A stretch of DNA of 64,000 nucleotides, from assembly GCF_000235425.2 (NCBI RefSeq), contig NZ_KI912266.1:7122720-7186719 (forward strand), written 5' to 3'. The stretch is from Pseudofrankia saprophytica. GTDB lineage: Bacteria > Actinomycetota > Actinomycetes > Frankiales > Frankiaceae. A program made the position numbers and the translations under genes. The notes under the pieces were generated by a model. The model was given only the letters and a program-made list of their open reading frames with translations. It did not search any database and was not told where the DNA came from. Of this stretch, positions 29,316-55,232 are shown piece after piece (positions within the stretch are counted from its first letter, which is position 1; every line of letters begins with the position of its first letter).

Positions 29316-29419
29316 GTGTCAGATGAGAGCGCCAATAGGCACCGCCATCTGACACAGCTCGCCGCCTGGGATTCTTTTCGTGTCAGTTGGGGGTGTGTAT
29401 AGGCACCAGGATCTGACAC
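29316..29419. repeat. twin 40-nt palindromic repeat, locus 1
   Basis: Two 40-nt units (29316-29355 and 29380-29419), each beginning GTGTCAG and ending ATCTGACAC, separated by 24 bp. The first has perfect 10-bp arms (GTGTCAGATG / CATCTGACAC); both share ATAGGCACC in the middle. The same 40-24-40 layout recurs at 55129-55232. It lies just past the 3' end of the GntR gene. Confidence 0.85.
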
Positions 29420-29433
29420 GATTCAGCGCCGGG

Positions 29434-30129
29434 TCAGTCCTCGGGGGTCCAGAGGATGTTGCGGGACTTGAGGAGGTCGACGACGAGGTCGCCGTGGCCG
29501 CGCAGCATCTTGACGAAATCCGCGGAGGCGCGCTGGCCGTTGCGGGCCTTGATGGCACGGTTGACCGCGGCGATGCCGCGTTTCTGTGGCTGGATCGTGC
29601 CGGGAACGAGGGCGAAGAAGTTGCCCGGAATGACGCCCGTCATCAGCCGGCCGAACGACGACAGCCGCGGCGACTGCGCCATCGCGAAGATCTGCCGGAG
29701 GTAGGCCTCGTTGGCGTGCAGGACGTCGTCGGGGTCCTCCGCGTCGCGCAGCGCGCGCTCGGCCGTGGACAGCGCCTCGATGCCGTCGTCGTCGCCGCGC
29801 TCGGTGGCCCGCTCGGAGGCCAGGCCGTAGAGCTGGCCGAGCAGGGCGTAGTGGTCGCGCACCGAGTTCAGGTCCAGGCCGTGGACGAACGCGCCGCGGT
29901 GGGGCTCGATCGAGATCCAGCCCTCGCTCTCCAGCGCGATCATCGCCTCACGCACGGGAATGCGGCTGACGCCCAGCTCCTCGGCGATCTCGTCCTGGCG
30001 GACGTGGTCGCCCTGGCGCAGGGTGCCGGCGAAGATCAGGCCCCGGATGTGGTCGGCGACCTGGCTTCCGCTGCTCCTGCGGTCGACGACGGAGCGCTTG
30101 CCCGGTGCGTGGTGCGCAAGCGGGCTCAC
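29434..30129 (-). CDS. GntR-family regulator with FCD ligand domain
   Basis: A 231-aa FadR/VanR-type transcription factor. The winged HTH is at about 20-85 (QVADHIRGLIFAGTLRQGD, then VSRIPVREAMIALESEGW), followed by the all-helical FCD domain from about 95 with metal/ligand-binding His/Asp candidates (HANEAYL, RGHGDLV). Such proteins release DNA when bound to an acid or acyl-CoA. It probably controls nearby ligase/liv genes; a GTATAC lies at 30448, upstream of its own start. The start is GTG 30129. Confidence 0.9.
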   Translation of the reverse strand: MSPLAHHAPGKRSVVDRRSSGSQVADHIRGLIFAGTLRQGDHVRQDEIAEELGVSRIPVREAMIALESEGWISIEPHRGAFVHGLDLNSVRDHYALLGQLYGLASERATERGDDDGIEALSTAERALRDAEDPDDVLHANEAYLRQIFAMAQSPRLSSFGRLMTGVIPGNFFALVPGTIQPQKRGIAAVNRAIKARNGQRASADFVKMLRGHGDLVVDLLKSRNILWTPED

Positions 30130-30638
30130 CGCGGTCGCCGTCCGGCGGTTGGGAGGAATGGCCGGCTCCTTCAGCTCATGTCCAGGGTGCCGAGTTGCTG
30201 GCTCCTTCGACTGGGTCGAGCGAAACGCCTACCCATCAGTCCGCACGCGGACCAGTGGATACCCCCACAACCGCGAGAGCGCGTCGAGGGGTCCGGGAGT
30301 CTGGGTCCCCGCCGTGCCCTCGATGGCCTCGACAGGGCCTTTCTCCACGAAAGGCAAGCGGGCCGGTCCGCAAGCCGGCCGAGACCGACACACAGCTGAC
30401 CCACCGCGTTCCCACGCGGGCAGCGGACCGCGGAGAACTTGCAGGAAGTATACGACTGGGTCGTGGCGGTGCCGTCGCTCTGGGCGTTCGGCCGGACATC
30501 GCGTCCGTCACTTTTGTCCCATCGGTACCACCCTTACCGTCATATCCGGCCGTGCCGTGCCGTGCCGCGCCGTCCGGCCGTACCGCGCCGCCGGGGCGGC
30601 CCAAGCCCTCAGGGCCACCCAAGCCCTGAGGGTGGCCC
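30130..30638. other. intergenic region without a supported gene
   Basis: 509 bp. Frames here are Arg/Pro-rich and non-coding in character. It contains a GTATAC site at 30448-30453, GTGCC-type short tandem repeats near 30550-30575, and the liv terminator at its right end. Confidence 0.45.
30612..30638 (-). terminator. terminator hairpin of the liv transporter gene
   Basis: Perfect 9-bp arms GGGCCACCC / GGGTGGCCC with a 9-nt loop, touching the stop codon of the fused transporter. Confidence 0.65.
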
Positions 30639-33422
30639 TCATGGTGCGATGTCGGCGGGTCGGGCGCCGGCCGCCGCCGTCTCGGCCGTCTCGGCCGTCT
30701 CGGGAACGATGCCCAGGTAGGCGGTGGCCAGGCGCTCGGCGTCGACCTCGGCCGCGGGGCCTGTCCAGGTGATGTGGCCGACGGTCAGGAACGCGACCCG
30801 GTCGGCGATGGCCAGCGCGTCGCGGGTCTTCTCCTCGGCGATCAGCAGCGCGGTGCCCTGGCTCTGCAGCTGCCGCAGTGCATTGAAGATCTGCTCGATG
30901 ATGAGCGGCGCGAGGCCGAGCGATGGCTCGTCGGCGACGAGCAGCTTCGGCGGACGCACCAGCGCCGGCGCGAGCGTGAGCATCTGCTGCTCACCACCGG
31001 ACATGGTGCCCGCCGCCTGGTTGCGCCGCTCCTTGAGCACCGGGAAGGCCGCATATGCGGCCTCCCGCTCCTCGGCCGCGCGCAGCCACAGCGTCAGGTT
31101 CTCCTCGACCGTCAGGTCGGGGAAGATGCCGCGGCCCTCGGGCGCGAGGTACACGCTGTCGCGCTCGCGCCGCCGTGCCGGCACCCCGGTGACGTCCTGG
31201 CCTGCGAGCCACAGCTCGCCCGCGCGGGCGGGGACCAGGCCGCCGACGACCGAGCACAGCGTCGTCTTGCCGGCGCCATTGCTGCCCAGCAGCGCGACCG
31301 CCTCGCCGGGACCGACGGTCAGGTCGATGCCGTGCAGGACCTCGATCTCGTCGTATCCGGCCTTCAGACCGGCGATCCGCAGCACCGGCTCTGCCGCCGG
31401 CGCCCCGCCACCGTCCGCGGCCGCGGCCGCGCCGGCGACCGGAGACGTCGTGGCGACCCGCGGCGCCACCGTGCCGAGCGAGCCCGCCCCGGCCTGCCGC
31501 TGCCTGGCGGCCTTGCGCGCGGCCCGCTCGCGCATCGCCCGCGAACCGGCGGACAGGCCGCCCTCCGGGTCGCGCGCGAGGCCGATCGCGCCGAGACCGA
31601 ACAGCATCTGCATGAAGTAGCTCGACGCCGGGACGCCCTCGAGCGCCTGCGGGGCGAGCACCATGACCAGGCCCGCCAGCACCGCGCCGGCCGGCCGGCG
31701 GATGGAAAGGGTGACCGTGGTGGCCAGCCAGACCAGGCCCAGCAGGACGTCGTAGTCGGTGTTGGTGACCCGGCCGCGGCTCGCCGCCAGCATGACGCCA
31801 CCGAAGCCGGCGATGCCCGCGGAGATCACGAACACCAGCAGCTTCATCCGGTCGACGGCGATGCCGCTGGTGCGCGCGCCAGCCTCGCTGGACCGGACCG
31901 CGAGCATGGCGCGCCCGGTGCTGGAGGAGCGCAGCGCGTGCACGACCCACACGCCGAGGCCGACCAGCACCAGCATGAGCAGCACCAGCCAGCGCGGGTT
32001 GGTCAGGTCGATCCCGCCGATGTGCCCCGGGTTGACCGGCCAGCCGCCGGAGCCGTTGGAGATGCTCCGGATCTGGAAGAGCAGGTTCTGCCCGACGTAG
32101 GCGAGCGCCAGCGTCGACAGCGCCAGCGGCAGGCCGCCGAGCCGGCGGGTGGGCAGCGCGACGATCAGACCGACGACCGCCGAGACCAGCGTGCCGGCGA
32201 TCAGCGCGGGCAGGAACGGCACGCCGGCGTCGAGCATGATGCCCGCGGTGAAGGCTCCGGTAAGCACGAAGGCCGCCTGGGCGAGGCTCACCATGCCGCC
32301 GATGCCGGTGACGACCGTGAAGGACAGCAGCACGATCGACGTCGCCAGGCCTTGGGCGAGCAGGCCGGCCCAGAAGTCGGTCGCGCCAAAGCCGGTGTAG
32401 GCCAGCAGGCCGATGGTGCCGATTCCCCAGAGGATGCGCCGCTGCCACGGTGATCCGTGCTCCCGCAGCGCGTCGGCCGGCGGTTTCTCCTCCTGCGTCG
32501 TGCCGGCGCTGCGGCCGCGCTCCGCGCCGAAGTAGATCAGCAGACCGAACAGGATGATGAACGGCACCGCGGTGCGGAACCCGGTGATGTCGAGGTCGAC
32601 GTAGCCGTCGACCAGGTTCTGCGCCACGCCGAGCAGCAGGCCACCGAGCATCGCGATCGGGATCGAGGCCATCCGGCCGAGGACCACGGCCGGGATCGAG
32701 ATGAACAGCAGCGTGTTGTAGCTGAACGAGCTCAGGCCGAACATCGGCGCGAGCAGCACGCCCACCAGGCCCGCGAGCCCACACGAGGTGATCCAGGAGA
32801 CGGCGGACGCACGGTCCGGGTCGACACCGCGCAGCGCGGCGAGGTTCGGCCGGCTGACCGAGGCGCGCATCTCCAGGCCGATACGGGTGTGGCGGACCAG
32901 GTAGTAGAGCAGCCCCGCCGAGAAGATCGCCGCGCCAAGCATCGCCAGCTGGTCGCTGTCGATGACCAGGCCGTCGCCGATGACGTGGATCTTCTTCGGG
33001 CTCGGGCCGAGGCCGGGGATCCGGTAGACGTCCTCGATCGCGGGCAGATCCCAGTGCGCCTTGTCCTTCAGCAACGCCACGATCCACAGCCCGAGCGAGG
33101 GCAGGGCGATCAGCAGGCCGAGCGAGGCCACCATGCGGGCGGCGATCGACGCCTCCCGCAGCGGGTTGAACAGCACCCGGTGCAGCAGCCAGCCCAGCAG
33201 GGGTGCGAATATGCCGATACAGATGATCGCGCTCGGCACGATCGGCAGGCCCTGGCCGGTGTTCAACTGGAAGAACAGGTAGGCGGTCGAGAACGCGACG
33301 CCACCCTGGCCGAAGTTGAAGACACCGGACGTCTGATAGCTCAGCGTCAGACCGGACGCGAGGATCGCGTATAACGCGCCGGTGACCAGCCCCGAGACCA
33401 CCAGGTTGAAGAACTCGGTCAC
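30639..33422 (-). CDS. livH-livM-livF: fused branched-chain-type ABC transporter: LivH + LivM permeases + LivF ATPase
   Basis: One 927-aa polypeptide holds three normally separate subunits of a HAAT-type importer. Residues about 1-295 are LivH-like (ALYAILASGLTLSY, FNFGQGG), about 320-640 LivM-like (GGMVSLAQAAFVLTGAF, RSSEAGARTSGI), joined by an Ala/Gly-rich linker (about 645-685) to a LivF-like ATPase with Walker A GSNGAGKTT (about 712), signature MSGGEQQM (about 809) and Walker B LLVADEPS (about 827). No stop or frame change separates the parts. GTG 33422 has AAGGAGG 6 bp upstream. The partner ATPase LivG is the next gene upstream; no binding-protein gene is adjacent, but two occur further on. 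Confidence 0.92.
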   Translation of the reverse strand: MTEFFNLVVSGLVTGALYAILASGLTLSYQTSGVFNFGQGGVAFSTAYLFFQLNTGQGLPIVPSAIICIGIFAPLLGWLLHRVLFNPLREASIAARMVASLGLLIALPSLGLWIVALLKDKAHWDLPAIEDVYRIPGLGPSPKKIHVIGDGLVIDSDQLAMLGAAIFSAGLLYYLVRHTRIGLEMRASVSRPNLAALRGVDPDRASAVSWITSCGLAGLVGVLLAPMFGLSSFSYNTLLFISIPAVVLGRMASIPIAMLGGLLLGVAQNLVDGYVDLDITGFRTAVPFIILFGLLIYFGAERGRSAGTTQEEKPPADALREHGSPWQRRILWGIGTIGLLAYTGFGATDFWAGLLAQGLATSIVLLSFTVVTGIGGMVSLAQAAFVLTGAFTAGIMLDAGVPFLPALIAGTLVSAVVGLIVALPTRRLGGLPLALSTLALAYVGQNLLFQIRSISNGSGGWPVNPGHIGGIDLTNPRWLVLLMLVLVGLGVWVVHALRSSSTGRAMLAVRSSEAGARTSGIAVDRMKLLVFVISAGIAGFGGVMLAASRGRVTNTDYDVLLGLVWLATTVTLSIRRPAGAVLAGLVMVLAPQALEGVPASSYFMQMLFGLGAIGLARDPEGGLSAGSRAMRERAARKAARQRQAGAGSLGTVAPRVATTSPVAGAAAAADGGGAPAAEPVLRIAGLKAGYDEIEVLHGIDLTVGPGEAVALLGSNGAGKTTLCSVVGGLVPARAGELWLAGQDVTGVPARRRERDSVYLAPEGRGIFPDLTVEENLTLWLRAAEEREAAYAAFPVLKERRNQAAGTMSGGEQQMLTLAPALVRPPKLLVADEPSLGLAPLIIEQIFNALRQLQSQGTALLIAEEKTRDALAIADRVAFLTVGHITWTGPAAEVDAERLATAYLGIVPETAETAETAAAGARPADIAP

Positions 33423-33749
33423 GAAACCCTCCTTATGGCGTCCGCGCATGAGGCCGCGCGGACGCGGCGTCCGGAAACCCGGTACCGGCGGGCGGGCAAC
33501 CGCCGTGACCGGGGTGGAGCTGCACTGCCGCGCCGCTACCGACGTGCCGCTGGTTCTGTGTCACTGGTTCCGTGCCATTGCCGACTTGCCGACTCGCTGC
33601 CTTGCCGACTTGCTACCTTGCCGACTCGCTGCCTTGCCGCTGGTGACTGTTGCTTCCTCTGTTGCTTACTTCCGGACGAGACCACCGGGGGCGGAATCGG
33701 ACGTCACGTCGTCCGCGTCACCATTCCGCCGTGGCCGACGGCGCCGGCG
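33423..33749. other. intergenic region with short direct repeats
   Basis: 327 bp between livG and the fused transporter on the same strand. No gene; about 33580-33640 is made of imperfect direct repeats of GCCGACTTGC / GCCGACTCGCTGCCTT. Confidence 0.5.
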
Positions 33750-34628
33750 CTAGCCGAGGTAGGCGTCGCGGACCGCCTCGTCGGCCTGGATCTGCGCCGG
33801 CGTCCCCTCCGCCAGCACCGAACCGAGGTTGAGCACGGCGATCCGGTCACACATCCGCATGACGAAACCGGCGTCGTGCTCCACGAGCAGGACCGCGGTG
33901 CCCTGACCGCGCAGCGACTGGACCAGGTCACCGAAGCGCTCGGACTCGGTGTGGTCGAGCCCGGAAGTCGGCTCGTCGAGCAGCAGGAGCTTCGGGGTAT
34001 CGATGATCGCCCTGGCCAGCTCGACGAGGCGTTGAAGTCCGAGCGGCAGCGAACCGGCGGCGACCCGGCGGCTGTCGGCCAGGCCGCACCACTCGAGCAC
34101 CTCGTCCACCTGCTCACGGCGGGCCTTCTCCAGCGAGCGTCGCTTCGGCCAGGCGACCAGGTCGGCGAGCACGCCGCCACCACCGCCGCGCCACTCCAGC
34201 GCCGCGAGCACGTTGTCCTCGACGGACAGCCAGCTGAACACCTGGGCCCGCTGGAAGGTGCGGCGCATCCCGAGGCGCGAGCGGCCGGTGGAGGTCAGCC
34301 TCGTGATGTCCTGGCCACCGAACTCGACCTTGCCGGTCGTCGGCGCGGTGATGCCGGAGATGACGTCGAACAGCGTGGTCTTGCCCGCACCGTTCGGGCC
34401 GATCAGCCCGCGCACCATTCCCGGCTCGACGTCCAGCGAGACGTCGGTGAGCGCCTGGACACCGCCGAACCGCTTACTGATGCCGGTCAGGCGCAGCAGT
34501 GGCTCGACGACGGCCGTCGCGGCCGCTCCGGCCGGTGACGGCCGTGGCGTCGGTGTCGCGGCCGTCATCGACTCGGTACCGCCCAACGACTCGATACCGC
34601 CCAACGACTCAGTACCGTCAGACGACAT
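33750..34628 (-). CDS. livG: ABC transporter ATP-binding protein LivG
   Basis: A 292-aa ATPase of the branched-chain amino-acid importer family. Walker A GPNGAGKTT near 75-83, the family-specific MRRTFQRAQVF Q-loop region near 122, signature-like LPLGLQRLVE near 200 (the ABC signature is degenerate: LG in place of SGG), Walker B LLLLDEPTSGLD near 220 and the H-switch in LLVEHD near 253. ATG 34628 follows GGGAGG by 5 bp. The first 20 residues hold a repeat (ESLGGIESLGGTES, 18-bp units). Together with the fused LivHMF it forms the membrane part of one importer. Confidence 0.92.
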   Translation of the reverse strand: MSSDGTESLGGIESLGGTESMTAATPTPRPSPAGAAATAVVEPLLRLTGISKRFGGVQALTDVSLDVEPGMVRGLIGPNGAGKTTLFDVISGITAPTTGKVEFGGQDITRLTSTGRSRLGMRRTFQRAQVFSWLSVEDNVLAALEWRGGGGGVLADLVAWPKRRSLEKARREQVDEVLEWCGLADSRRVAAGSLPLGLQRLVELARAIIDTPKLLLLDEPTSGLDHTESERFGDLVQSLRGQGTAVLLVEHDAGFVMRMCDRIAVLNLGSVLAEGTPAQIQADEAVRDAYLG

Positions 34629-34668
34629 GGAGCCTCCCGGTGCAGCCATACGGCAGGTGAGAGTGGAT

Positions 34669-34682
34669 ACGATATGCAATCT
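34669..34682. promoter_or_regulatory. TATGCA motif upstream of livG
   Basis: CGATATGCAATCT, 41 bp before the livG start; nearly identical core to the site before the ligase at 27450. Confidence 0.4.
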
Positions 34683-34821
34683 GACCCGGATGTAACAAGG
34701 GTCACGTCCGGCTCGGCTCCCGGCGCCGCCACCAGCGGCGGTGACCAGCACGAACGGCGCCCGCGCACGCTAGACCCCCGCGCACCGGGCCAGCGCGCGC
34801 CGGACGAAGGGGCCGGCGGCA

Positions 34822-35967
34822 TCAGTCGACGCCCAGCAGGACGGTCGAGGTGGATGAGAACCAGCCGCCGGTCCCGTTGACGCACGCCACCCTGGCGCCG
34901 GGGACCTGCCGGCCGGCCGCCTCGCCGCGCAGCTGCCGGACGGCCTCCACCAGCAGGAAGATGCCGCGCATCCCGGGATGGCAGGCGGACAGGCCGCCGC
35001 CGTCGGTATTGGTCGGCATCCGCCCGCCGACCCGCATCGCGGCGCCCTCCAGGTAGGCGCCACCCTCGCCGCGGCCGCAGAAACCGAGTGCCTCGAAGGT
35101 GAGCAGCACCGTCGAGGTGAAGGAGTCGTAGAACTCGCAGACGTCGACGTCGGCCGCGGTGAGCCCGGCGCGCTCGAACGCCAGCTTCCCGGACACGGCG
35201 GCCGGCGACACCGTGAAGTCGGTCCACTCCGACATCGTCGTGACGTTGCTGGCCGTACCGGTGCCGAGCACCCGCACCGCGGGCCGCGGCAGGTCGGCGG
35301 CCCGCTCGACGGAGGTCAGCACCACCGCGCCGCCGCCGTCGCTGCGGATGCAGCAGTGCAGCTTGGTGAACGGCGTGGCGACCATCGGGGCGGACAACAC
35401 GTCGTCGACCGTGATCGGGTCCCGGTACATCGCGTCCGGGTTGAGGCTCGCGTTGTACCGGGTGTCCACGGCGATGTTCGCAAGCTGCTCGATCGTTGTG
35501 CCGAACTCGTGCATGTGCCGGCGGGCCGTCATCGCGTACTTGGCGATGAGCGTGTGCCCCCACGGAGCCTCGAACTGGCTCGGGCCGCGGGTCGACAGCG
35601 ACAGGTTCGCGGTGCGCAGCCGCTTCTTCAGGTCCGCGCGGGCCGTCGAGCCGTACACCAGCAGGACGGTGTGCGCGGTGCCGGCCTTGATCGCGTCGAC
35701 GGCGTGCTCGAGCATGACCTCCCAGGTGGAGCCGCCGACACTCGTCGAGTCCACCCAGGTCGGGCGCAGGCCGAGATATTCGGCCAGCTCGACCGGCGCC
35801 AGCACGCCAAGCCCGGTGGAGCCGAAGCCGTCGACGTCCGCGTGGCTGAGGCCCGCGTCAGCGAGCGCGCGGGCGGCCGCCTGGTAGTGCAGCGCGAACG
35901 GGGTCGCGTTGTCGACCCGCCCGCAGTCCGACAGCGCCGCGCCGACGACGGCCACCTGCCCCGTCAT
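34822..35967 (-). CDS. thiolase-like protein (SCP2-thiolase/Ltp2 group) lacking the nucleophilic cysteine
   Basis: A 381-aa thiolase-superfamily protein (VAVVGAALSDCGRVD start, HPGMRGIFLLVEA near 325, CVNGTGG near 360). The segment where thiolases carry the reactive Cys reads STSVGGSTWE (74-83), with Gly/Ser instead. This is as in steroid side-chain aldolases of the Ltp2 type, which work with a DUF35 partner, rather than true thiolases. A DUF35 gene is located 1 kb away in the divergent operon (36975). ATG 35967 has GAGGAGG upstream. So a retro-aldol role is plausible; it is inference from family logic. Confidence 0.82.
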   Translation of the reverse strand: MTGQVAVVGAALSDCGRVDNATPFALHYQAAARALADAGLSHADVDGFGSTGLGVLAPVELAEYLGLRPTWVDSTSVGGSTWEVMLEHAVDAIKAGTAHTVLLVYGSTARADLKKRLRTANLSLSTRGPSQFEAPWGHTLIAKYAMTARRHMHEFGTTIEQLANIAVDTRYNASLNPDAMYRDPITVDDVLSAPMVATPFTKLHCCIRSDGGGAVVLTSVERAADLPRPAVRVLGTGTASNVTTMSEWTDFTVSPAAVSGKLAFERAGLTAADVDVCEFYDSFTSTVLLTFEALGFCGRGEGGAYLEGAAMRVGGRMPTNTDGGGLSACHPGMRGIFLLVEAVRQLRGEAAGRQVPGARVACVNGTGGWFSSTSTVLLGVD

Positions 35968-36320
35968 ACGTCCTCCTCGCCCCTCACCAGTTTGGTACTG
36001 CTACATCCGACCGATCCACCCGGTACCGGCCACCTACGGCCCACCACCCGGCGACCAACGCCGACAGGATCGCTCCCACACCGGCCACGACCCGCCCGCC
36101 TACCCCGGCGGGCGCCGGACCCGTCCCCGTTCCGCCGGTCCGACGGAAATCCTTGGAAACTCGGCCTGATTCGAATTTTGTATATACTATCCGATCACAG
36201 ATCAGGCGCCTCCGCAACCGGCGCCAGCTCCGGGCAGCTCCGCTCCTGGACGGCACCGCTCCGGACACGCACTACCCCTGGACAAGCACCGCCCCTGGAC
36301 AAGCACCGCAGGGAGAGCGC
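35968..36320. other. divergent intergenic region with TATACT site
   Basis: 353 bp without a gene. AT-rich core TTTTGTATATACTATCC at 36176-36192, in a likely shared promoter of the thiolase-like gene and the MaoC-DUF35-MaoC operon. Confidence 0.45.
36176..36192. promoter_or_regulatory. TATATAC motif between divergent genes
   Basis: TTTTGTATATACTATCC; read on the minus strand it is GGATAGTATATACAAAA, like the other TATACA sites. Confidence 0.4.
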
Positions 36321-36809
36321 ATGGACGACGCAACAGCGACCGCCGAGGCCGCCGAGGCGGGCACCGATCCGGAGACGGAGAAGGGCGCCGCCTGCTTTGA
36401 GGACCTCGAGGTGGGCGGGAAGGCGCCGGTACGCACCCGCACGCTGACCCGCACGGACCTGGTCCGCTACGCCGGCGCGTCACACGACTTCAACCCTCTG
36501 CACCACGACGACGAGCGGGCGCGCGCCGCCGGCATGAAGAGCGTCTTCGGGCACGGCATGTTCTCCGCCGGGATGCTCGCGACCGCCCTCACCGACCTCG
36601 TCGGCATCGGTAACCTGCGCGGCTACAAGGTGCGCTTCACGACGCAGGCCTGGCCGGGCGACGTGCTGAGCACCGACATCACGGTGACGAGCAAGGACGA
36701 GGCCACCGGCCTCGTCGAGCTCGACTGCCAGCTGGTCAACGCGGAGGGCGCGGCGGTCGTCGCCGGTTCCGCGGTCGCCAAGCCCGTTCGCGGCCGAGCG
36801 AGCGAGTGA
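36321..36809 (+). CDS. MaoC-like (R)-specific enoyl-CoA hydratase
   Basis: A 162-aa hot-dog-fold hydratase. Catalytic Asp/His are in the hydratase-2 motif HDFNPLHHDD (about 57-66), followed by VFGHGMFSAGML. These enzymes hydrate enoyl-CoA; in steroid degradation they form heteromers with DUF35/MaoC partners. ATG 36321 follows GGGAGAG by 5 bp; the frame upstream to 36153 is non-coding. First of the rightward set MaoC, DUF35, MaoC-N. Confidence 0.9.
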   Translation: MDDATATAEAAEAGTDPETEKGAACFEDLEVGGKAPVRTRTLTRTDLVRYAGASHDFNPLHHDDERARAAGMKSVFGHGMFSAGMLATALTDLVGIGNLRGYKVRFTTQAWPGDVLSTDITVTSKDEATGLVELDCQLVNAEGAAVVAGSAVAKPVRGRASE

Positions 36810-36865
36810 AGTGGTCGTCCGAGGCGGACCTCCCAGATCGGCTACGCAAGCTCCGCCGATCCGGC

Positions 36866-36901
36866 GGGGACCCCGGAGGACGGCCGTGAGCAGGGGTCCC
36901 C
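36866..36901 (+). promoter_or_regulatory. intercistronic hairpin
   Basis: Perfect 9-bp arms GGGGACCCC / GGGGTCCCC with an 18-nt loop, between the MaoC and DUF35 genes. It may be an attenuator or processing site. Confidence 0.35.
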
Positions 36902-36974
36902 GGCCACTCGCGAAGCGACGGCTGGGGGGGCCGATGAGTGAGCGAGGAAGCGAACCAGAGATGAGGAGGCGGGC

Positions 36975-37385: not shown

Positions 37386-37460
37386 GGCCCGAGCCCGAGC
37401 CGGGGCCCGAGCCGGGCCCGGGCCCCGCACGTCTCCCGCCTGTGTCCTGAGGAGAGCACC

Positions 37461-37949
37461 GTGAGCGCGACCGACTTCATCGGCACCCAGCTCCCGCCGG
37501 CGACCGTCGTCGTCGAGCGGGGCGCCGTCGCCGCCTTCGCCGAGGCCGTCACCGACGCCTCGGCCGTCTACCAGCGGGCCGACGCGGCGGTGGCGGCGGG
37601 CTTCGAGACCATCCCCGCGCCGCCCACGTTCACGTTCGCCGCCCGGCTGCTTGGCGCGTTCCCCGACCTGCAGCCCGCCCGCCCCGACGGCGCCCTCGAC
37701 ACCACCGAGATCATCGCCGCGCTCCGCAAGGACGGCGGCCTGATCCTGCACGCCGAGCAGGAGTTCACCTACCACCGCCCCGTGCTCGCCGGCAGCACCG
37801 TGCGCGTCACCGGCGAGGTCGAGGACGTCCGCGTCACCACCAACAGCCGCGGGAAGCAGATGACCTTCGTCCGGCTCCGCTCCGACACCCGCGACGAGGC
37901 CGGCGAGCTTCTCGTCACCGAGGTCATGACCCTCCTGCACCGCGCCTGA
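37461..37949 (+). CDS. MaoC-N-type (FAS1-like) dehydratase domain protein
   Basis: A 162-aa hot-dog protein of the N-terminal MaoC/FAS1-dehydratase type (PPATVVVERGAVAAFAEAVTD, IPAPPTFTFAARL, EQEFTYHRPVLAGSTVRVTG). Such subunits lack the catalytic Asp-His motif themselves and pair with a standard MaoC, so with the 36321 gene it can make a HadAB/ChsH1-H2-like heteromer. GTG 37461 follows AGGAGAG by 5 bp. Last gene of the set; twin repeats follow. Confidence 0.85.
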   Translation: MSATDFIGTQLPPATVVVERGAVAAFAEAVTDASAVYQRADAAVAAGFETIPAPPTFTFAARLLGAFPDLQPARPDGALDTTEIIAALRKDGGLILHAEQEFTYHRPVLAGSTVRVTGEVEDVRVTTNSRGKQMTFVRLRSDTRDEAGELLVTEVMTLLHRA

Positions 37950-37957
37950 CCGCGAAC

Positions 37958-38062
37958 TGTGGCTGCTGAACGTCTCCCTGGACCAGACCATCGACCACAG
38001 TTCATCCCGCCGGATCAGAGTGTGGCTGCTGGGCGAGCGTATGGACACGATGACCGACCACA
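37958..38062. repeat. twin 42-nt palindromic repeats
   Basis: Units at 37958-37999 and 38021-38062, 21 bp apart. Both start TGTGGCTGCTG, share a central TGGA and end GACCACA, giving TGTGG/CCACA arms (nine bp, GAACTGTGG/CCACAGTTC, around unit 1). They begin 8 bp after the MaoC-N stop. Confidence 0.7.
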
Positions 38063-39415: not shown

Positions 39416-39435
39416 AGGACCGCACACAGGCCTGA

Positions 39436-45632: not shown

Positions 45633-45677
45633 GACACAGACCTCCTCGACGTACGGGCTGACGGCCGGCGGCGGATC

Positions 45678-46532: not shown

Positions 46533-46581
46533 GCGGCCTTCCTTTCCATGTCTCTGACAGCCTCCATGGACGGAAGGGTGA

Positions 46582-47643: not shown

Positions 47644-47646
47644 CGC

Positions 47647-48855
47647 TCACCGCTCCCTGGGCAGGCCGAGGACGCGCTCGGCGATGATGTTCTTCTGGAT
47701 CTGCGAGGTGCCGGCGCCGATGCTGATCGCGAAGGCGTGCAGGTGCTCGATGATGTGGCGCCCGACGGGCAGGTCCGTGCCGTCGCCCAGCGGCAGCGCG
47801 TCGAGGCTGATCGCGTAGCGCTCCAGCACCTTCATCGCGACCTCGCCGAAGTGGTGGATCGCCTCGGAGTAGGTCAGTTTGAAGGCCGACCCGCCCGCGG
47901 GCGGAACGCCGCCGCCGCCGGCCGCGCGGGTGACGTTGCGCCGGGTCAGCGCCCACATGGCGTCGAGCTCGGCGGCGACCTGGCCGATCTCCCGGCGGAT
48001 CGCGTCGTCGTCCCAGGCCGTGCGTCCCGGGCCGTGGCCGAGCGTCTTCGCGAGCGTCGCCAGTTCCTCGACCATCGTCATCGCGGTGAGCAGCTCGCGC
48101 ACCAGCGACGTCCCGCGCTCGAAGCTGAAGGTCACCATCGCGACCCGCCAGCCGTCGTTCTCCCGCCCGACGAGGTTCTCCACCGGGATGCGAACCTCGT
48201 CGAGGAACATCTCGGCGAACTCGCTCTCGCCCTGGATGGTGCGCAGCGGGCGGACGTCGATGCCGGGAAGGTCCATCGGCATGATCAGCCAGCTGATGCC
48301 GCGGTGCTTGCCGGCGTCCGGGTCGGTGCGGACCAACAGCTCGCAGTAGTCGGCGGCGAAGCCGTAGGACGTCCAGATCTTGCTGCCGGTGACGACGTAG
48401 TGGTCGCCGTCGCGCACGGCCCTGGTGCGCAGGCTCGCCAGATCGCTGCCGGCGCCTGGCTCGGAGAACCCCTGGCACCAGATCGACTCGCCGCGCAGGA
48501 TCCGCGGCAGGTGGAACGCCCGCTGCTCGTCGGTCGCCTCGGCGATCAGCGTCGGGCCGGCGTGCAGCTGGCCGACGAAGTGCACCCCGAGGTCGGGGGC
48601 GCCGGCCGCCGCCGACTCGGCGAGGAAGATCAGCTGTTCGGACGCGGTCACGCCGCGGCCGCCGTAGGCGGCCGGCCAGTCGATGCCGGCGTAGCCGGCG
48701 TCGAAGAGCATCCGCTGCCAGCGCTGGTCGTAGGCCTTCTTCGCCGTCCAGTCACCGTAGGCGGGTGGCGGGCCGAGGACCGGCAGGTTCTCGGCGAGCC
48801 AGGCGCGCACCTCCTTGCGGAACCTCGCGTCGGACTCGGAGTCCCGCAGCCGCAT
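47647..48855 (-). CDS. acyl-CoA dehydrogenase, longer subunit
   Basis: A 402-aa flavin-dependent dehydrogenase. Characteristic FAD/substrate segments: WCQGFSEPGAGSDLASLRTRA near 125, DHYVVTGSKIWTSYG near 152, MVTFSFERG and the C-terminal AFAISIGAGTSQIQKNIIAERVLGLP. Where most ACADs have the catalytic Glu in EGT, this has GAGT, so the base may be supplied by the partner subunit. ATG 48855 has GAGGTGGAG upstream; the open frame to 48963 is non-coding. First gene of a four-gene leftward operon. Confidence 0.9.
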   Translation of the reverse strand: MRLRDSESDARFRKEVRAWLAENLPVLGPPPAYGDWTAKKAYDQRWQRMLFDAGYAGIDWPAAYGGRGVTASEQLIFLAESAAAGAPDLGVHFVGQLHAGPTLIAEATDEQRAFHLPRILRGESIWCQGFSEPGAGSDLASLRTRAVRDGDHYVVTGSKIWTSYGFAADYCELLVRTDPDAGKHRGISWLIMPMDLPGIDVRPLRTIQGESEFAEMFLDEVRIPVENLVGRENDGWRVAMVTFSFERGTSLVRELLTAMTMVEELATLAKTLGHGPGRTAWDDDAIRREIGQVAAELDAMWALTRRNVTRAAGGGGVPPAGGSAFKLTYSEAIHHFGEVAMKVLERYAISLDALPLGDGTDLPVGRHIIEHLHAFAISIGAGTSQIQKNIIAERVLGLPRER

Positions 48856-49251
48856 GCTCCACCTCGTCTCGCCGGCAGACCCGGCCTCGCCCCGGCCCTG
48901 GAACGGGCTCCGGGCGCGCGGCTTCACCACCGCCGCGTGCCCTTCGCCCGCACAAGCGCCCACGCCGGAGTGGGCGGGGGCTATTCCCCCTCCGGCGCCG
49001 CCCCCACCCGCGACGCCGGTTTTGTCGGCGGCGTCGCGAACGGTTGGCCGGGCAGATCGTATACATTATGCTAGCGCAGCGGACCGCCGCGACACCAGCG
49101 ACAACCGCGATCCGCCGGCATCGGCGGGACGGCGGCGAGCTCGGTGACCGCGGACGCCGCCTGGGCGCACACAGCGGCGCGCCGGTCGGACGAGCGCGGT
49201 CGGACGAGCAGTGACGAGCAGTACTCAGCCGGATCGGTGGTGCATACGGCC
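48856..49251. other. divergent intergenic region with TATACA site
   Basis: 396 bp between the ACAD operon and the seven-gene operon. No gene; AT-rich CGTATACATTATGC at 49059-49072. Confidence 0.5.
49059..49072. promoter_or_regulatory. TATACA motif between two acyl-CoA operons
   Basis: CGTATACATTATGC, about 200 bp from both divergent starts; fifth member of the motif set. Confidence 0.4.
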
Positions 49252-50499
49252 ATGACAGACCTGACGACAGAGCAGCTCCCGCAGGTGGTGGGCGGGCCCG
49301 ACGTCGACGCGTCGGTCCTGGCGAAGATCCCGGACCTCATCGACATGGACGCGCACGTCGTCGAAGCGCCGGACGTGTGGATTTCCCGGCTGCCTGCGAA
49401 GTACCGCGAGCAGGGTCCGCGCATCGTGATGGCCCCGGCCGGCGAGGTGAAGCTCGTCGGCTCCAGCTACATCGAGGCTCCCGGCACCGACGGTCCGGAC
49501 GTGGCCTGGTGGAGCTACGAGGGCCGGATGACGAGCCTCAAGCGCTACATCGCCGCGGCCGGTGTCCCCGCCGACGAGGTGACGATGGACGGCATCACGT
49601 TCGACGACATGCGCCCCGGCTGCTGGAAGGTGGCCGACCGGATCGCCGACATGGACATCAACGGGGTGGCCGCCCAGCTGGCCTTCCCGAACTACCCGCG
49701 GTTCTGCGGACAGATCTTCCTGTGGGGCAAGGACAAGGAGCTGTCGAAGCTCTGCGTCGAGGCGTACAACGACTGGATGGTCGAACAGTGGTGCGGCACG
49801 TCGGGCGGGCGGCTGCTCCCGCTGTGCATCGTGCCGCTGTGGGACGTGAACCTGGCCGCCGCCGAGGTGCGCCGCAACGCCGCCCGCGGCGTGCGGGCCG
49901 TCGCGTTCACTGAACTTCCGTCCTACCTGGACCTGCCGAGCCTGCACTCGGGGTACTGGGACCCGTTCTTCGCCGCCTGCGCGGAGACCGGCACCGTCGT
50001 CGCGATGCACATCGGGTCGGGCACCAAGGTCATGCAGACCGCGCCTGACGCCCCCGAGGCCGTGCAGGCGACGGTCCTGTTCAGCAACAGCGCCGGCAGC
50101 CTCGTCGACTTCCTCTTCTCCGGCGTGCCGCACCGCTTCCCCGACCTCAAGCTGATGTACGCCGAGGCCCAGATCGGCTGGATCCCGTACGTGCTCGACC
50201 GGGCCGACGACGTGTGGCTGACCCACCGCGGCTGGGCGCACGGCCAGCTGCACTGCCCCGAGCCGCCGTCGACCTACTACCGTCGCCAGGTCTACAGCTG
50301 CTTCTTCAAGGACCCGGTGGGCGTCGACCTGCTCGACCGGATCGGCATCGACAACGTCGTCTTCGAGACCGACTACCCGCACCAGGACGGCACCTGGCCG
50401 CAGTCGAAGAAGGCCGCCGCCCAGCAGTTCGGCCACCTGCCCCAGGCGGACATCGACAAGATCGCCTGTGGCAACGCGGCCAGGCTCCTGGGGCTGTGA
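49252..50499 (+). CDS. amidohydrolase-2 family (TIM-barrel) protein
   Basis: A 415-aa metal-dependent hydrolase or decarboxylase of the amidohydrolase-2/ACMSD type. The start motif DMDAHVVE (near 31-38), VVAMHIGSGT (near 244), YAEAQIGWIPYVLDR (near 305) and the metal/acid residue region VFETDYPHQDGTWPQ (near 370-384) are all visible. Members that lie in acyl-CoA clusters may act on ring or side-chain carbonyls; the reaction here is unknown. ATG 49252; first gene of a seven-gene rightward operon. Confidence 0.9.
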   Translation: MTDLTTEQLPQVVGGPDVDASVLAKIPDLIDMDAHVVEAPDVWISRLPAKYREQGPRIVMAPAGEVKLVGSSYIEAPGTDGPDVAWWSYEGRMTSLKRYIAAAGVPADEVTMDGITFDDMRPGCWKVADRIADMDINGVAAQLAFPNYPRFCGQIFLWGKDKELSKLCVEAYNDWMVEQWCGTSGGRLLPLCIVPLWDVNLAAAEVRRNAARGVRAVAFTELPSYLDLPSLHSGYWDPFFAACAETGTVVAMHIGSGTKVMQTAPDAPEAVQATVLFSNSAGSLVDFLFSGVPHRFPDLKLMYAEAQIGWIPYVLDRADDVWLTHRGWAHGQLHCPEPPSTYYRRQVYSCFFKDPVGVDLLDRIGIDNVVFETDYPHQDGTWPQSKKAAAQQFGHLPQADIDKIACGNAARLLGL

Positions 50500-50619
50500 C
50501 ATTGGTTCGCTCCGGCGACCTCCGCGCCAGCTCGGTTGCTCGGTCCTGACCATTACGAGCGGGGTTACCGCATCCACCGTCAGGTAGTCGGCCGTAAGAC
50601 CCCGAAAGGCGGCCCATCC

Positions 50620-51963
50620 GTGGTCACGAATGCCAGCGACGCCACCGCGACCAAAGCCGAGGACGCGAACCCCGCCACAGCGGATGGCAAGACCAAGGCC
50701 CGGGAGCCCCGGCCCGGCGGGACGATCACCGACGAGGGGATCGCACGGCTGCGGGCCCGGATCGGCATCGCCGAGCCGCACACCGCCCCGCCGCAGTACC
50801 GGCGCCCGAACGTCGACGCGTTCCGCAACGTGGCCCGCTGCTACGGCGACGACAACCCGCTGTGGTGCGACGAGGACTACGCGACCGCGTCGAGCTGGGG
50901 CGGGCCGATCGCCCCACCCCCGCTCGTCGGCGGCGACACCCTCATCGGCGAGGACGAGGTCACCAGCATTCCGGGCCACCTCCGGGACGTGATGAAGGGC
51001 GACCCGCTGCGCGGGGTGCACGCCTTCTACTCGGGGGCGTCCCGGGAGTGGTGGGCGCCGCTGCGGCCGGGGCTGCGGGTGTTCCGCCGCAACGCCCTCG
51101 TCGGGGTGCACGACAAGGTGAGCGAGTTCGCCGGCCGCGCGGTCCACGAGTGGGGCGGCCAGGTCTTCATGGACGAGACCGGCACGCCGCTGTCCGGGCA
51201 GTACCGCAACATGGTCCGCACCGAGCGCCGCAAGGCCCGCGAGCGCGGCAAGTACGCGAAGATCGAGCCTCAGCGGTACACCGACGAGCAGATCGCCGAG
51301 ATCGAGGCGGCCTACGACGCCGAGGCCACCGCCCGCCGCGGCGGCGACCCGCGCCACTGGGAGGACGTCCAGATCGGCGACACGATCGGGCCGATGGTGA
51401 AGGGGCCGCTGCGGGTCACCGACATGGTCTGCTGGCACGTCGGCATGGGCATGGGCCTCTACGGTGTCGCCCCGCTGCGCCTCGCGCTGGCGAACCGCCG
51501 GCGTATCCCGGGCTTCTACTACCGCGACGACCTGAACATCCCGGACGTGCAGCAGCGGGTGCACTGGGACCCGGAGCTCGCCCGCCGCGCCGGCAACCCG
51601 ACGACCTACGACTACGGCCGGATGCGCGAGACCTGGCTCATCCACCTGTGCACCGACTGGATGGGCGACGACGCCTGGCTGTGGAAGCTCTCCTGCGAGT
51701 TCCGCAAGTTCAACTACGTCGGCGACACGCAGTGGCTGCGCGGCACGGTCGTGAGGAAGTACCTGGCCGAGGGCGGCCGGCCCGCCGTCGACCTCGAGTT
51801 GACGGCGACCAACCAGCGCGACGAGCTCACCACGCCCGGAACGGCAACGATCCTGCTGCCCAGCCGCGAGCACGGCGCCATCCGCCTACCCGACCCGCCC
51901 GGCGGCACCGGCAACCTCCAGAACACCCTCGACGCGATCGCCGAACGGTTCAAGGACCTGTGA
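50620..51963 (+). CDS. double hot-dog MaoC/FAS1-like dehydratase
   Basis: A 447-aa protein with two hot-dog halves in one chain: an N-terminal FAS1-like dehydratase part (VDAFRNVARCYGDDNPLWCD near 60-80, GGPIAPPPLVGG) and a second domain from about 230 (RHWEDVQIGDTIGPMVKGPLRVTD, RIPGFYYRDDLN). A single-chain equivalent of the MaoC pair at 36321/37461. GTG 50620 has a weak AAAGG site. The last base triplet overlaps the next gene (GTGA). Confidence 0.85.
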   Translation: MVTNASDATATKAEDANPATADGKTKAREPRPGGTITDEGIARLRARIGIAEPHTAPPQYRRPNVDAFRNVARCYGDDNPLWCDEDYATASSWGGPIAPPPLVGGDTLIGEDEVTSIPGHLRDVMKGDPLRGVHAFYSGASREWWAPLRPGLRVFRRNALVGVHDKVSEFAGRAVHEWGGQVFMDETGTPLSGQYRNMVRTERRKARERGKYAKIEPQRYTDEQIAEIEAAYDAEATARRGGDPRHWEDVQIGDTIGPMVKGPLRVTDMVCWHVGMGMGLYGVAPLRLALANRRRIPGFYYRDDLNIPDVQQRVHWDPELARRAGNPTTYDYGRMRETWLIHLCTDWMGDDAWLWKLSCEFRKFNYVGDTQWLRGTVVRKYLAEGGRPAVDLELTATNQRDELTTPGTATILLPSREHGAIRLPDPPGGTGNLQNTLDAIAERFKDL

Positions 51964-52802
51964 GCGCCGTCGTGAGCGAGGACGCCGCCGACAGCCCCGG
52001 GTACGCGAGCGCGCCAGGGCTGGACGTCGTCCTCGACGGGCCGGTGCTGCGGCTGACGCTGGACCGGCCGACGAAGCGCAACGCGATCAACGACGCGATG
52101 ATGTACGGACTCATCGACACGATCGCCCAGGCCGGCACCGACGAGGCCGTCCGGGTCATCCTGCTGCGCGGCAACGGCGAGAACTTCTGCGGCGGTGCGG
52201 ACATCGTCGCCCGCAACAGCGCCGGCGGCCCCAGGCCCCGGGCGGGCTCGATCCAACGCCGGCTGCCGTTCCAGGCGCACCGGCTGATCCCGCTGATCTG
52301 CACGGTGCAGACCCCGGTGGTGTGCGCGGTGCAGGGCTGGACGACCGGGATCGGCCTGGCGCTGGCCGTCGCCGCCGACGTGACTGTCGCCGCCGCGGAC
52401 ACCCGGTTCTGGGCGCCGTTCTCCGAGCGCGCCTTCACCCCGGACAGCGGCCTGACCTGGTTGCTACCGCGCCGGGTCGGCGAGGTGCGCGCACGGCGGA
52501 TGCTGCTGCTTGGCGAGCGGGTCGACGCGGCCACCGCCGTCGACTGGGGCCTGATCCACGCCGTCGCCGCGGCCGAGGAGCTCGACGCGACCGCGGGCGA
52601 CGTCGTCGCCCGGCTCGCGGCCGGACCGACGGTGGGGCTCGGCCTGACCAAGTGGCTGATGCACGTCGGCGCCTCGGCCAATCTGGACGACCACCTGCGC
52701 AACGAGGCCTTCGGGATGGAGCTGTCGTCGCGCAGCGAGGACTTCCGCGAGGGCCTGGCGGCCTTCGCGGCGAAGCGCTCTGCCAACTTCAAGGGGCGGT
52801 GA
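51960..52802 (+). CDS. enoyl-CoA hydratase/isomerase family protein
   Basis: A 280-aa crotonase, GTG start overlapping the preceding stop by 4 bp. The oxyanion loop is FCGGADI (near 76-82); TGIGLALAVAAD (129-140) has Ala134 in place of the first Glu and F154 in place of the second, while D162 (TPDSGLTW) matches the acid used by PaaG-type isomerases. So a 2,3-dehydroadipyl/isomerase-like reaction is more likely than hydration. Third gene of the operon; the following ACAD starts 4 bp after its stop. Confidence 0.88.
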   Translation: MSAVVSEDAADSPGYASAPGLDVVLDGPVLRLTLDRPTKRNAINDAMMYGLIDTIAQAGTDEAVRVILLRGNGENFCGGADIVARNSAGGPRPRAGSIQRRLPFQAHRLIPLICTVQTPVVCAVQGWTTGIGLALAVAADVTVAAADTRFWAPFSERAFTPDSGLTWLLPRRVGEVRARRMLLLGERVDAATAVDWGLIHAVAAAEELDATAGDVVARLAAGPTVGLGLTKWLMHVGASANLDDHLRNEAFGMELSSRSEDFREGLAAFAAKRSANFKGR

Positions 52803-52806
52803 CGGG

Positions 52807-54219
52807 ATGTCGGTGACGACGCCGGACGCGGCCGGCACCCCGGACGCGGTGCTGCCCAAGGGCGCGGCGGACGCGAAGGGGCCGGTCGGGCCGAACGGGC
52901 GGCTGCTGCTCGCCGCGGACGCGACGCCGGAGGAGGCCCGCGCCAAGGTGCGGGAATGGGTCGAGGCGAACGTGCCGGTGACCTGGCGCGAGGCCGCCGC
53001 GGCCGGCGGGCGGGCGGCGATCCGGAAGGTGCGCAGCCGGGCGGACTACGAGCGCTGGTACCCGGTGTTCGGCGTCTCCGGCCTGGTCGCGGCCCGCTGG
53101 GCGCCCGAGTACGGCGGCCTCGGCCTGTCGTCGGGCGCCGCCAGGGCCGCCGACGAGGAGCTGCGCCCGTACAACCTGGGCCGGCTCAACCCGCTGGGCC
53201 TGGCCAACGCCGCCACCGCGCTGTTCGCGCACGGCACCGAGGAGCAGAAGCGCCGCTTCCTGCCGCCGATCGTGCGCAACGAGGAGGTGTGGTGCCAGCT
53301 GTTCTCCGAGCCCGGCGCCGGCTCCGACCTCGCGTCGCTGGCCACCCGCGCCGTCCGCGAGGGTGACAACTGGATCGTCACCGGCCAGAAGGTCTGGACG
53401 ACGTGGGGCTTCCTCGCCGACTACGGCGTGCTGCTCGCCCGTACCGACCCGGACGTGCCGAAGCGGGGCGGCATCACCTACTTCCTCATCGACATGCACC
53501 AGCCGGGCGTCGAGGTGCGCTCGCTGCGGCATGTCACCGGCGAGGTCGACTTCTGCGAGGTCTTCCTCGACGACGCGGTCGTCCCGGACAGCCAGCGGCT
53601 CGGCGCGGTCGGCGACGGCTGGCGGGTCGGCAACTCCACCCTGTCCGGCGAGCGGCAGATGGTCTCCGGCTCCGGCTCAGGTGGCGTCGACCGGATCGGC
53701 GGCTCGGGCGCGCTGCACCTGGTGAAGCTCGCCAAGGAGGTCAGCGCCGCGGGCCGGCCAGGCGGCTGGGACGAGCCGACCGTCCGCCAGGAGATCGCGC
53801 ACCTCTACAGCGAGGAGCGGATCCGGGCCTGGAACAACGAGCGCATCCGCGCCCGGCTCGCCGCCGGGCTCGCGCCGGGGCCGGAGAGCTCGATCGGCAA
53901 GGTCCACCAGGGTGACCTCAACCAGCGCACCCAGGCGCTGGCCGCCGACCTGCTCGGCGCGTACGGCGCCGCGTGGGAGTCGGACTTCATCCCCGGTACC
54001 GAACACGCCGGGGCGGACGGCGCCCCGCTCGAGCCGGCCGAGGTCTACGCCGAGTCCCTCCCCCACGAGGTGAAGGGCATGCTGCGCAGCCGGGCCAACA
54101 CGATCGAGGGCGGGACGTCCGAGGTCAACAAGAACATCCTCGCCGAGCGCGTGCTGGGCCTGCCCCGCGAGCCCGACCCGCACCGCGGCAAGGCCTGGAA
54201 GGACGTCCCCCGCAGCTGA
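52807..54219 (+). CDS. acyl-CoA dehydrogenase
   Basis: A 470-aa ACAD of the larger FadE type. WCQLFSEPGAGSDLAS near 160-175, DNWIVTGQKVWTTWG near 187, LFAHGTEEQK and SRANTIEGGTSEVNKNILAERVLGLP near 425-450, with the catalytic-type glutamate in IEGGTSE kept. It oxidises acyl-CoA to enoyl-CoA using FAD. ATG 52807. In the operon it stands before the tandem crotonases. Confidence 0.93.
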   Translation: MSVTTPDAAGTPDAVLPKGAADAKGPVGPNGRLLLAADATPEEARAKVREWVEANVPVTWREAAAAGGRAAIRKVRSRADYERWYPVFGVSGLVAARWAPEYGGLGLSSGAARAADEELRPYNLGRLNPLGLANAATALFAHGTEEQKRRFLPPIVRNEEVWCQLFSEPGAGSDLASLATRAVREGDNWIVTGQKVWTTWGFLADYGVLLARTDPDVPKRGGITYFLIDMHQPGVEVRSLRHVTGEVDFCEVFLDDAVVPDSQRLGAVGDGWRVGNSTLSGERQMVSGSGSGGVDRIGGSGALHLVKLAKEVSAAGRPGGWDEPTVRQEIAHLYSEERIRAWNNERIRARLAAGLAPGPESSIGKVHQGDLNQRTQALAADLLGAYGAAWESDFIPGTEHAGADGAPLEPAEVYAESLPHEVKGMLRSRANTIEGGTSEVNKNILAERVLGLPREPDPHRGKAWKDVPRS

Positions 54220-54275
54220 CCGCGCCCTCGCGGGGTCGCCCTCGCAAGGTCTCTACCTAGTCGGAGTCGGAGCAG

Positions 54276-55139
54276 ATGTCCGAGGAGTACCAGACCCTTC
54301 GGGTCAGTCGGGACGGGCCCGTCGGCTGGCTCGAACTGAACCGGCCGAAGGCCGGCAACGCCATGGACGGCGTCATGTTCGACGAGCTGCCGCGTGCCTG
54401 GGCCGAGCTCGACGCCGACCCGGCGGTGCGCGTCATCGTCAACGTCGGCGCCGGCCGCGACTTCTGCACCGGCCTGGACGTCGTCCAGCTCAGCCGCGAC
54501 CCGGGCGCGCTGCGCGAGCAGTCCCGGCGGACCAAGCGGTCCGAGCTGCGGATCACCGGCTGGCACTGCGGGGTCGTCAAGCCGGTGATCGCCGCGATCC
54601 AGGGCCGGGTCGTCGGCGGCGGCCTGCACTTCGTCGCGGACGCGGACGTCGTCATCGCCGCGTCCGACGTCGCGTTCATCGACTCGCACGTGTCGGTCGG
54701 GCAGGTGACCGCGTTCGAGGGCATCGCGCTGACCCGTAAGCTCGCTGCCGAGACGATCATGCGGCTGGTGCTCGCCGGCCGGCACGAGAAGCTCGGCGCC
54801 GCCCGGGCCTACCAGCTCGGCATGGTCAGCGAGGTGGTCGAGGATCCGGCCGAGCTGCGCGAGCGGGCCGCGGACCTGGCCGCGAAGATCGCCCGCAACT
54901 CGCCGGCGGCGATGGCCGCGACCAAGCGCGCCCTCTACCGCGCGCTCGAGGACGGCCTGACGGCCGCCTGCCAGGCCGCGGCCGCCGACCTTGTCGGCCT
55001 GTGGGGCCATCCCGACCAGGTCGAGGGCCCGGCGGCGTTCGTCGAGAAGCGCCCGGCGCGGTGGGCACCGCTCGACCGGGAGGCGGAGCACGAGAAGGTG
55101 CTCGCCTCGCGGCAGCCAACAGCGGAGCGTGTCAGATGA
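54276..55139 (+). CDS. crotonase-family protein with Glu-to-His substitutions (copy 1)
   Basis: A 287-aa crotonase. In GGGLHFVADADV the first catalytic Glu is His118, and in FIDSHVSVGQ the second is His138; the oxyanion loop FCTGLDV is kept. These changes rule out the ordinary hydratase mechanism. It is a close paralogue of the next gene (shared ALEDGLTAAC, VEGPAAFVEKRPA). The stop codon TGA (55137-55139) is inside the first unit of the twin 40-nt repeat. GGAGCAG precedes ATG 54276. Confidence 0.9.
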   Translation: MSEEYQTLRVSRDGPVGWLELNRPKAGNAMDGVMFDELPRAWAELDADPAVRVIVNVGAGRDFCTGLDVVQLSRDPGALREQSRRTKRSELRITGWHCGVVKPVIAAIQGRVVGGGLHFVADADVVIAASDVAFIDSHVSVGQVTAFEGIALTRKLAAETIMRLVLAGRHEKLGAARAYQLGMVSEVVEDPAELRERAADLAAKIARNSPAAMAATKRALYRALEDGLTAACQAAAADLVGLWGHPDQVEGPAAFVEKRPARWAPLDREAEHEKVLASRQPTAERVR

Positions 55140-55232
55140 GCCCGTCTATGGGCTTCCCCATCCGACACAGTCCAACGGACGGCCTGAGGTTTGTGTCGGA
55201 TGGGCAAGCCCATGGGCTCGCCCATCCGACAC
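55129..55232. repeat. twin 40-nt palindromic repeat, locus 2
   Basis: Units at 55129-55168 and 55193-55232, again separated by 24 bp. The second is a perfect palindrome pair: 13-bp arms GTGTCGGATGGGC / GCCCATCCGACAC enclosing a 12-nt inner palindrome AGCCCATGGGCT. Same start (GTGTC), end (GACAC), unit length and spacing as 29316-29419. Confidence 0.9.

Follow-up and report, generated by a model that had tools for sequence, protein, structure and literature searches.

What are the paired 40-nt palindromes that occur, with the same architecture, at two loci of the window (the whole 64,000-nt stretch of Pseudofrankia DNA analyzed here)? The first-pass annotation took them for a specific element rather than a product of chance, and proposed a genome-wide search, in which a lack of further copies, together with a different spacing in relatives, would speak for coincidence. 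The search returned about 56 loci in the 9.98 Mb genome of the window strain (G000), with unit starts nearly always 64 or 63 bp apart across four genomes, which supports that view. The pairs form a family, found in a few soil actinobacteria, with fixed geometry and usually a third conserved sequence, the module, in helical phase with the palindromes; its members sit mostly at gene ends, in many cases share positions between species, have a patchy distribution among genomes, and at some loci carry an inverted linker. Judging from sequence, the family looks like an apparently undescribed cousin of known bacterial palindromic repeats. The reading that we favor, and to which we give roughly an even chance, is a clade-restricted non-autonomous repeat akin to REPINs (hairpin-forming doublets of repetitive extragenic palindromes, or REPs), located mostly at gene 3' ends and doubling there as a hairpin gene end.

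Paired palindromes in the window

All four reported units were found again at their coordinates, each 40 nt long, starting with GTGTC and ending with GACAC, with a 24-bp gap at both loci. Three of the four fit GTGTCNGAT-gap-ATCNGACAC exactly, a pattern with no matches in 100 shuffles of the window. At the second locus, W55, the stop codon of the crotonase-type open reading frame (ORF) 54276-55139 indeed falls within unit 55129-55168, and the ORFs on either side of the pair match ECH_1, in agreement with the description of two crotonase paralogs. Unit 55193-55232, previously called a perfect palindrome, is palindromic, with a match measured at 19 of 20 arm positions; the siting of pairs at gene ends is upheld, and "acyl-CoA regions" turn out to be a trait of this window, not one established for the family. 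A third pair, W38 (37959-38061), and the modules next to both reported pairs had been overlooked; the larger asymmetric element, with a phased module beyond the pair, was outside what the first-pass annotation could see. The features are as follows.

29184..29253, + strand: conserved module of W29; motif start 108 bp before unit 1
29316..29355, + strand: module-proximal palindromic unit of W29
29356..29379, + strand: 24-nt linker of W29, similar on its right side to native G005/G006 flanking sequence
29380..29419, + strand: distal palindromic unit of W29; alignable with the one hairpin-like sequence present in the orthologous G005/G006 intergenic region
37959..37998, + strand: first unit of W38 (63-bp type); begins 9 bp past the stop of ORF 37461-37949
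38022..38061, + strand: second unit of W38; module detected nowhere near this pair
55129..55168, + strand: module-distal palindromic unit of W55; the crotonase-type ORF upstream has its stop codon in this unit
55169..55192, + strand: 24-nt linker of W55; inverted in place relative to the orthologous G006 locus L186
55193..55232, + strand: module-proximal palindromic unit of W55; 19/20 arm positions match
55294..55363, - strand: conserved module of W55; motif start 107 bp from the pair

A family with constant spacing

A profile built on 23 pairs and run over the whole G000 genome gave 56 distinct pair loci at E <= 1.2e-4, plus a few weaker ones; with E up to 1 and both strands summed, there were 118 matches. 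The profile overlooks some copies, such as L289, a 63-type pair beside a module, which is outside the 56-locus list. In the same genome, a fixed 40-nt pattern with at most three mismatches occurs at 77 places (4 for the reversed-pattern control), and the pair pattern has 8 forward and 7 reverse matches, some of them overlapping, compared to 0 and 0 in the control. Chance origin is rejected, as the window scan exceeds its shuffles and both genome scans exceed their controls.

The 97 copies studied further comprise 56 from G000 (three of them in the window), one from G004, and 20 each from Pseudofrankia asymbiotica NRRL B-16386 (G005) and Pseudofrankia sp. BMG5.36 (G006), the latter two sets being among the matches listed for those genomes. 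Distance between unit starts, measured by a script that accepted 62-66 bp only, is 64 bp in 83 copies, 63 bp in 13 and 62 bp in one; six copies (L119, L123, L134, L137, L152 and L154) appear damaged or badly placed in this measurement. The unit consists of a 40-nt core, or 50-54 nt counting the symmetric flanks, with the consensus, derived by eye, of CGRACY-GTGKCRGATSRGCNNGYCYAT-RGRCNNGCYSATCYGMCAC-RGTTCG.

The conserved module and helical phasing

The module lies on one side of the pair and has the approximate form YAC-N5-GTRNTCR-N3-YGYRCACGGCTGARCGGGCCGCTGA. Its distance from the pair is 87, 95, 97, 106-109, 115-118, 127-128 or 139 bp, commonly about 117 bp. A motif search that accepted listed distances only located it in 73 of the 97 copies, a count that presupposed the distances and is to that extent circular; profile tests were therefore run at any distance, and the first of them, with E up to 1, placed the module beside the pair in 74 of the 97, at 87-139 bp. 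This profile left the L166 module, one of the 73, unconfirmed, and gave one further hit, in L115, away from the recurrent distances. A model trained on 23 copies with the module at 116-118 bp produced 50 hits beyond the training set, some of them orthologs of training copies, and 49 of these hits, i.e., all except L115, were at recurrent distances.

When the 73 motif copies and L132 (module-less copies being omitted) were arranged in 20 groups of orthologs or close copies, the largest change in module distance was 0-2 bp in 14 groups, and 10, 10, 11, 11, 11 and 30 bp in the other six. Because the shifts are either 0-2 bp or 10, 11 and 30 bp, we interpret them as helical phasing, which suggests a DNA-protein complex; it is as if the module and the palindromes had to face the same side of the helix, approximately 10-11 turns apart.

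Such phasing could also be expected of sites for a regulator or a nucleoid organizer that bridges the module and the palindromes, with the copies kept by selection on the sites and not by mobility. The palindromic half-sites, the dyad symmetry of the whole pair, and the positions common to three species are compatible with this explanation, but the copies are found mostly at gene ends and not upstream of genes, entire copies are absent at some orthologous sites, and at one orthologous locus (L289 versus L159/L184) the arms come from different subfamilies; we consider it distinctly unlikely.

The module is found also in three genomes with few or no palindromes, with 3, 5 and 3 matches in G001, G003 and G004, respectively, at E up to 0.05. 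Examples of modules with no palindromes in these species are L308 (G001), L309 (G003) and L307 (G004), and the G004 ortholog of L107/L169/L187 has the module and lacks the pair. The module must therefore predate the pairs or be independent of them.

Gene ends, symmetry and folding

The pairs sit mostly at gene 3' ends. With the module drawn on the left and the pair on the right, the gene next to the pair is oriented toward it in 49 of the 73 copies of the motif set, and in 23 of these 49 the stop codon is inside the pair or within 20 bp of its edge, although orthologs are counted repeatedly here and the counts have no random-intergenic control. Genes on the module side have no preferred orientation (37 versus 36), so that the module is rejected as an upstream signal of the left gene.

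Within units, two-sided changes are in excess of shuffles (159 versus 92 +/- 13; 49 units, four of them from Parafrankia), while pairing of arms in 23 pairs is barely above the shuffled level in an RNA-type covariation test. In 20 of 150 units (75 pairs), the two arms agree at no fewer than 18 of 20 positions, with about 1.6 such units expected; most of these 150 units look like independent half-sites. Single units fold far below shuffled energy (e.g., -34.8 kcal/mol, z -6.8), and, among three pairs folded, W55 forms one hairpin (-76.7 kcal/mol, z -8.6) and W29 has z of -6.4. A known RNA family is rejected, as the Rfam search of 20 loci (76,550 bases) had no matches at the gathering score. As for intrinsic terminators, the hairpin at a gene 3' end is there and the T-run is not: only 2 of 97 pairs have TTTT in the first 20 nt outside the pair on either side, as against 1 in the control.

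These properties bear on the possibility that the pairs are plain bidirectional terminators, or hairpins protecting 3' ends, which share a clade-specific sequence and do not move. The siting next to stop codons and the strong folding of units would be accounted for, as would the divergence of arms, which is no faster than in nearby intergenic DNA (see below). Moreover, the gene end at W29 is occupied in seven relatives by other sequences, several of them hairpin-like, and in G006 by a single GTGG...CCAC hairpin (both judged by eye). A hairpin role, however, requires neither a common 40-nt sequence nor a 64-bp doublet nor a phased module 100 bp away, and the dearth of T-runs and the absence or scarcity of the family in close relatives also argue against it. 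We regard this explanation as possible, if somewhat unlikely.

Shared and unshared positions in related genomes

Many copies stand at positions that G000, G005 and G006 have in common, and identity in the larger blocks around them is mostly 84-96%. Identity of arms is 0.75-0.78 in 36 orthologous comparisons and 0.62-0.69 between unrelated copies; the corresponding values are 0.80 and 0.56 for the module, and 0.62 and 0.33 for the 20 bp beyond the pair, aligned without gaps. The expectation that arms diverge faster than flanks finds no support in the values of 0.75-0.78 for arms against 0.62 beyond the pair.

At other loci the genomes differ. At W29, G000 has about 250 bp more intergenic DNA than G005 and G006, in both of which one hairpin-like sequence occupies the place of the distal unit. 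In a search for empty sites with joined flanks, relatives matched only 3 of 11 loci (W29, L120 and L128), with a clear outcome at W29, a partial one at L120, and an uninformative one at L128. At the orthologous sites, G000 lacks the copies L174/L192 and L196 of G005/G006, and the G000 copy L150 is absent from both G005 and G006. At the locus of L159/L184, arms are of the 63-type in G000 and of the 64-type in G005 and G006.

Inversions and breaks

Direction of the linker relative to the flanks was compared in 39 orthologous pairs, and was found to be inverted in place in six (five loci), kept in 22, and indeterminate in 11. The strongest case is L186 versus W55, with linker identity of 0.92 in inverted and 0.46 in direct orientation. 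In L170/L189, inner arms are inverted too (0.85 versus 0.65) and outer arms are unmoved (0.74 versus 0.58); in L133/L166, outer arms disagree with a center-to-center flip. Of 4925 random unrelated pairs, 161 would also count as inverted by such a criterion, since linkers fall into families, and some of the inversions could thus be replacements.

Alignment breaks within the element give 25 directed ends, which stem from at most about four events, most of them in one repeat family: 17 are at unit centers (positions 15-19 or 85-89), six at position 42, and one each at 57 and 94. L124 and L126 are 99% identical across 671 bp, from a unit center onward.

The concentration of breaks at unit centers, including the start of the L124/L126 identity, and the in-place inversion of linkers would be natural if the pairs were sites of site-specific recombination, with cuts at centers, exchange of half-sites, flipping of the core, and swapping of arms between loci. 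Against this stand the eight off-center ends and the small number of underlying events, the linkers that kept their direction or are indeterminate, the background of inverted-looking unrelated pairs, and the outer arms of L133/L166; in addition, template switching between inverted repeats would explain inversions without an enzyme. This explanation seems to us very unlikely.

L124, L125, L126 and L131 of G000 belong to a repeat of very roughly 870 bp, which has ends near CATGATCYGGTGGGATC and encloses the twin-palindrome element. At L284, the orthologous gene end bears a short foldback with ends similar to those of this repeat. L114 (G000) shares a conserved left flank with L160 (G005) and L180 (G006), relative to which its element and the DNA close by have the opposite orientation; one break falls at a unit center.

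Distribution across genomes

The family is patchy: it is rich in six genomes and absent or scarce in their close relatives. On both strands of 18 genomes, the single-unit profile gave at least 150 matches in G000, 90 in G005 and 106 in G006, which belong to the same genus, and 71 in G014 and 99 in G017 (Parafrankia soli NRRL B-16219), both from the sister genus Parafrankia; there were 7 matches in G033, 4 in G004, 1 in G002 and none in 10 others. In a class-wide draw, 12 of 393 genomes match this profile. At least 15 candidates each are found in G000, G005, G006, G014, G017 and G032, the latter representing a third genus (best E 1e-10 for the single unit); the rest are G004, G033 and four distant genomes (best E from 1.1e-8 to 3.5e-6). 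G331, a 2.8 Mb genome from a distant member of the class, has nine single-unit matches, possibly of an unrelated palindrome family. In the genome_contigs collection, which is described as covering 84,980 species and from which the window's own records may have been excluded, a strict exact-pattern scan returned 27 stretches, all in P. asymbiotica, Pseudofrankia sp. BMG5.36 and P. soli.

The doublet was not seen in Parafrankia: a second unit was found 45-130 bp away in none of the 18 loci tested in G014 and G017, and the arms of these solo units agree at 16 to 20 of their 20 positions. The Y1_Tnp domain (PF01797) of REP-associated tyrosine transposases (RAYTs) is present in both Parafrankia carriers and in three of nine unit-poor or unit-free genomes. 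P. soli G017 has nine Y1_Tnp matches, unlike the Pseudofrankia carriers, in which the lack of a match (see below) leads us to reject a RAYT-driven REP.

Comparison with known repeat systems

REPINs (PMC3116915) are extragenic inverted REP doublets with a constant spacing (71 bp separates the 16-mers of the GI type), which can fold into one long hairpin and undergo compensatory changes. The Pseudofrankia pairs resemble them in the inverted doublet, fixed spacing, single-hairpin folding (W55 and W29, not W38), extragenic location and compensatory changes. They differ in that the carriers have no Y1_Tnp match, each half of the pair is itself a 40-54 nt palindrome, and there is an extra phased module; furthermore, the solo units of Parafrankia are almost perfectly palindromic, unlike decayed remnants. 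The GTAG/CGTC families of REPs have units of 20-40 bp, occur as singles and dimers, are patchy between species and often lie less than 20 bp from gene 3' ends (PMC3733652). Our family shares with them the many extragenic palindromes, singles and dimers, gene 3' ends and patchiness, but its units are at or above the 20-40 bp range, and neither tag is enriched: GTAG is near the unit end in 3 of 194 units and CGTC in 24, both below background (23 and 79, respectively, in the control 300 bp away). Because Y1_Tnp was not found in the Pseudofrankia carriers and the tags are unenriched, we do not classify the family as REP or REPIN.

Composite REPs of the BIME/RIP type combine paired palindromes with a further conserved segment resembling a protein site. 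Our elements have a similar makeup, except that the third segment is outside the pair and helically phased, and no protein is known for it. Miniature inverted-repeat transposable elements (MITEs) are short and intergenic, with inverted repeats, and inversion is reported for Correia elements (PMC10969869). The pairs are likewise short, intergenic and built of inverted repeats, with no evident coding capacity; they differ from MITEs in having no clear target-site duplication and no known autonomous partner, Y1_Tnp alone having been searched for. The open-licence literature consulted, including passages of PMC3733652, PMC3188489, PMC10969869, PMC12306157 and PMC3116915, holds no description of this family; the main text of PMC3733652 contains none of the words Frankia, Actinobacter and Streptomyces, and Frankia is unmentioned in the REP, REPIN and MITE papers searched for that word.

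What the family may be and why it matters

Several results weigh against a mobile REPIN-like repeat that doubles as a gene end. There are no Y1_Tnp matches in G000, G005 and G006, and no mobilizing enzyme was identified in a search confined to this domain. A survey of target-site duplications in 73 copies, at many end positions, found a slight excess only and no clear case (e.g., four identical five-mers versus 0.26 expected at one of many offsets tried). Near-identical copies are seen only inside one larger repeat family, the module-side boundary of the insertion-like difference at W29 is blurred, and differences in presence could be explained by either gain or loss. Because the module occurs without palindromes, the composite is not one indivisible unit; because arms diverge no faster than nearby intergenic DNA, their divergence by itself shows nothing special. 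The gene-context counts have the limits given above, our simple gene-calling script ran an ORF through the element in 5 of 73 copies and in 6 of the 24 others, and W38 folds no better than shuffles (z +0.87).

A more elaborate scheme, which we deem unlikely, is a tripartite phased site, where a dedicated recombinase or transposase other than RAYT would act on module and palindromes together, cutting at centers, flipping the core and swapping arms, so that gene-end positions stay fixed and arms change. Under the favored REPIN-like reading, a protein complex would bind the module and the palindromes jointly, a recombinase or transposase acting in trans would spread the copies and rearrange them, and the settled hairpin would then serve as an end for transcripts from both directions. 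That the pairs terminate transcription, bind protein and still move today is inferred from sequence features.

A RAYT-less family of doublets with a phased third site in Pseudofrankia raises the question of what else spreads such repeats. Its sharp presence and absence among close species offers a way to track down the missing factor by comparison, and the phasing yields a testable prediction, namely, that changes of the spacer by 5 bp and by 10 bp would differ in their effect.

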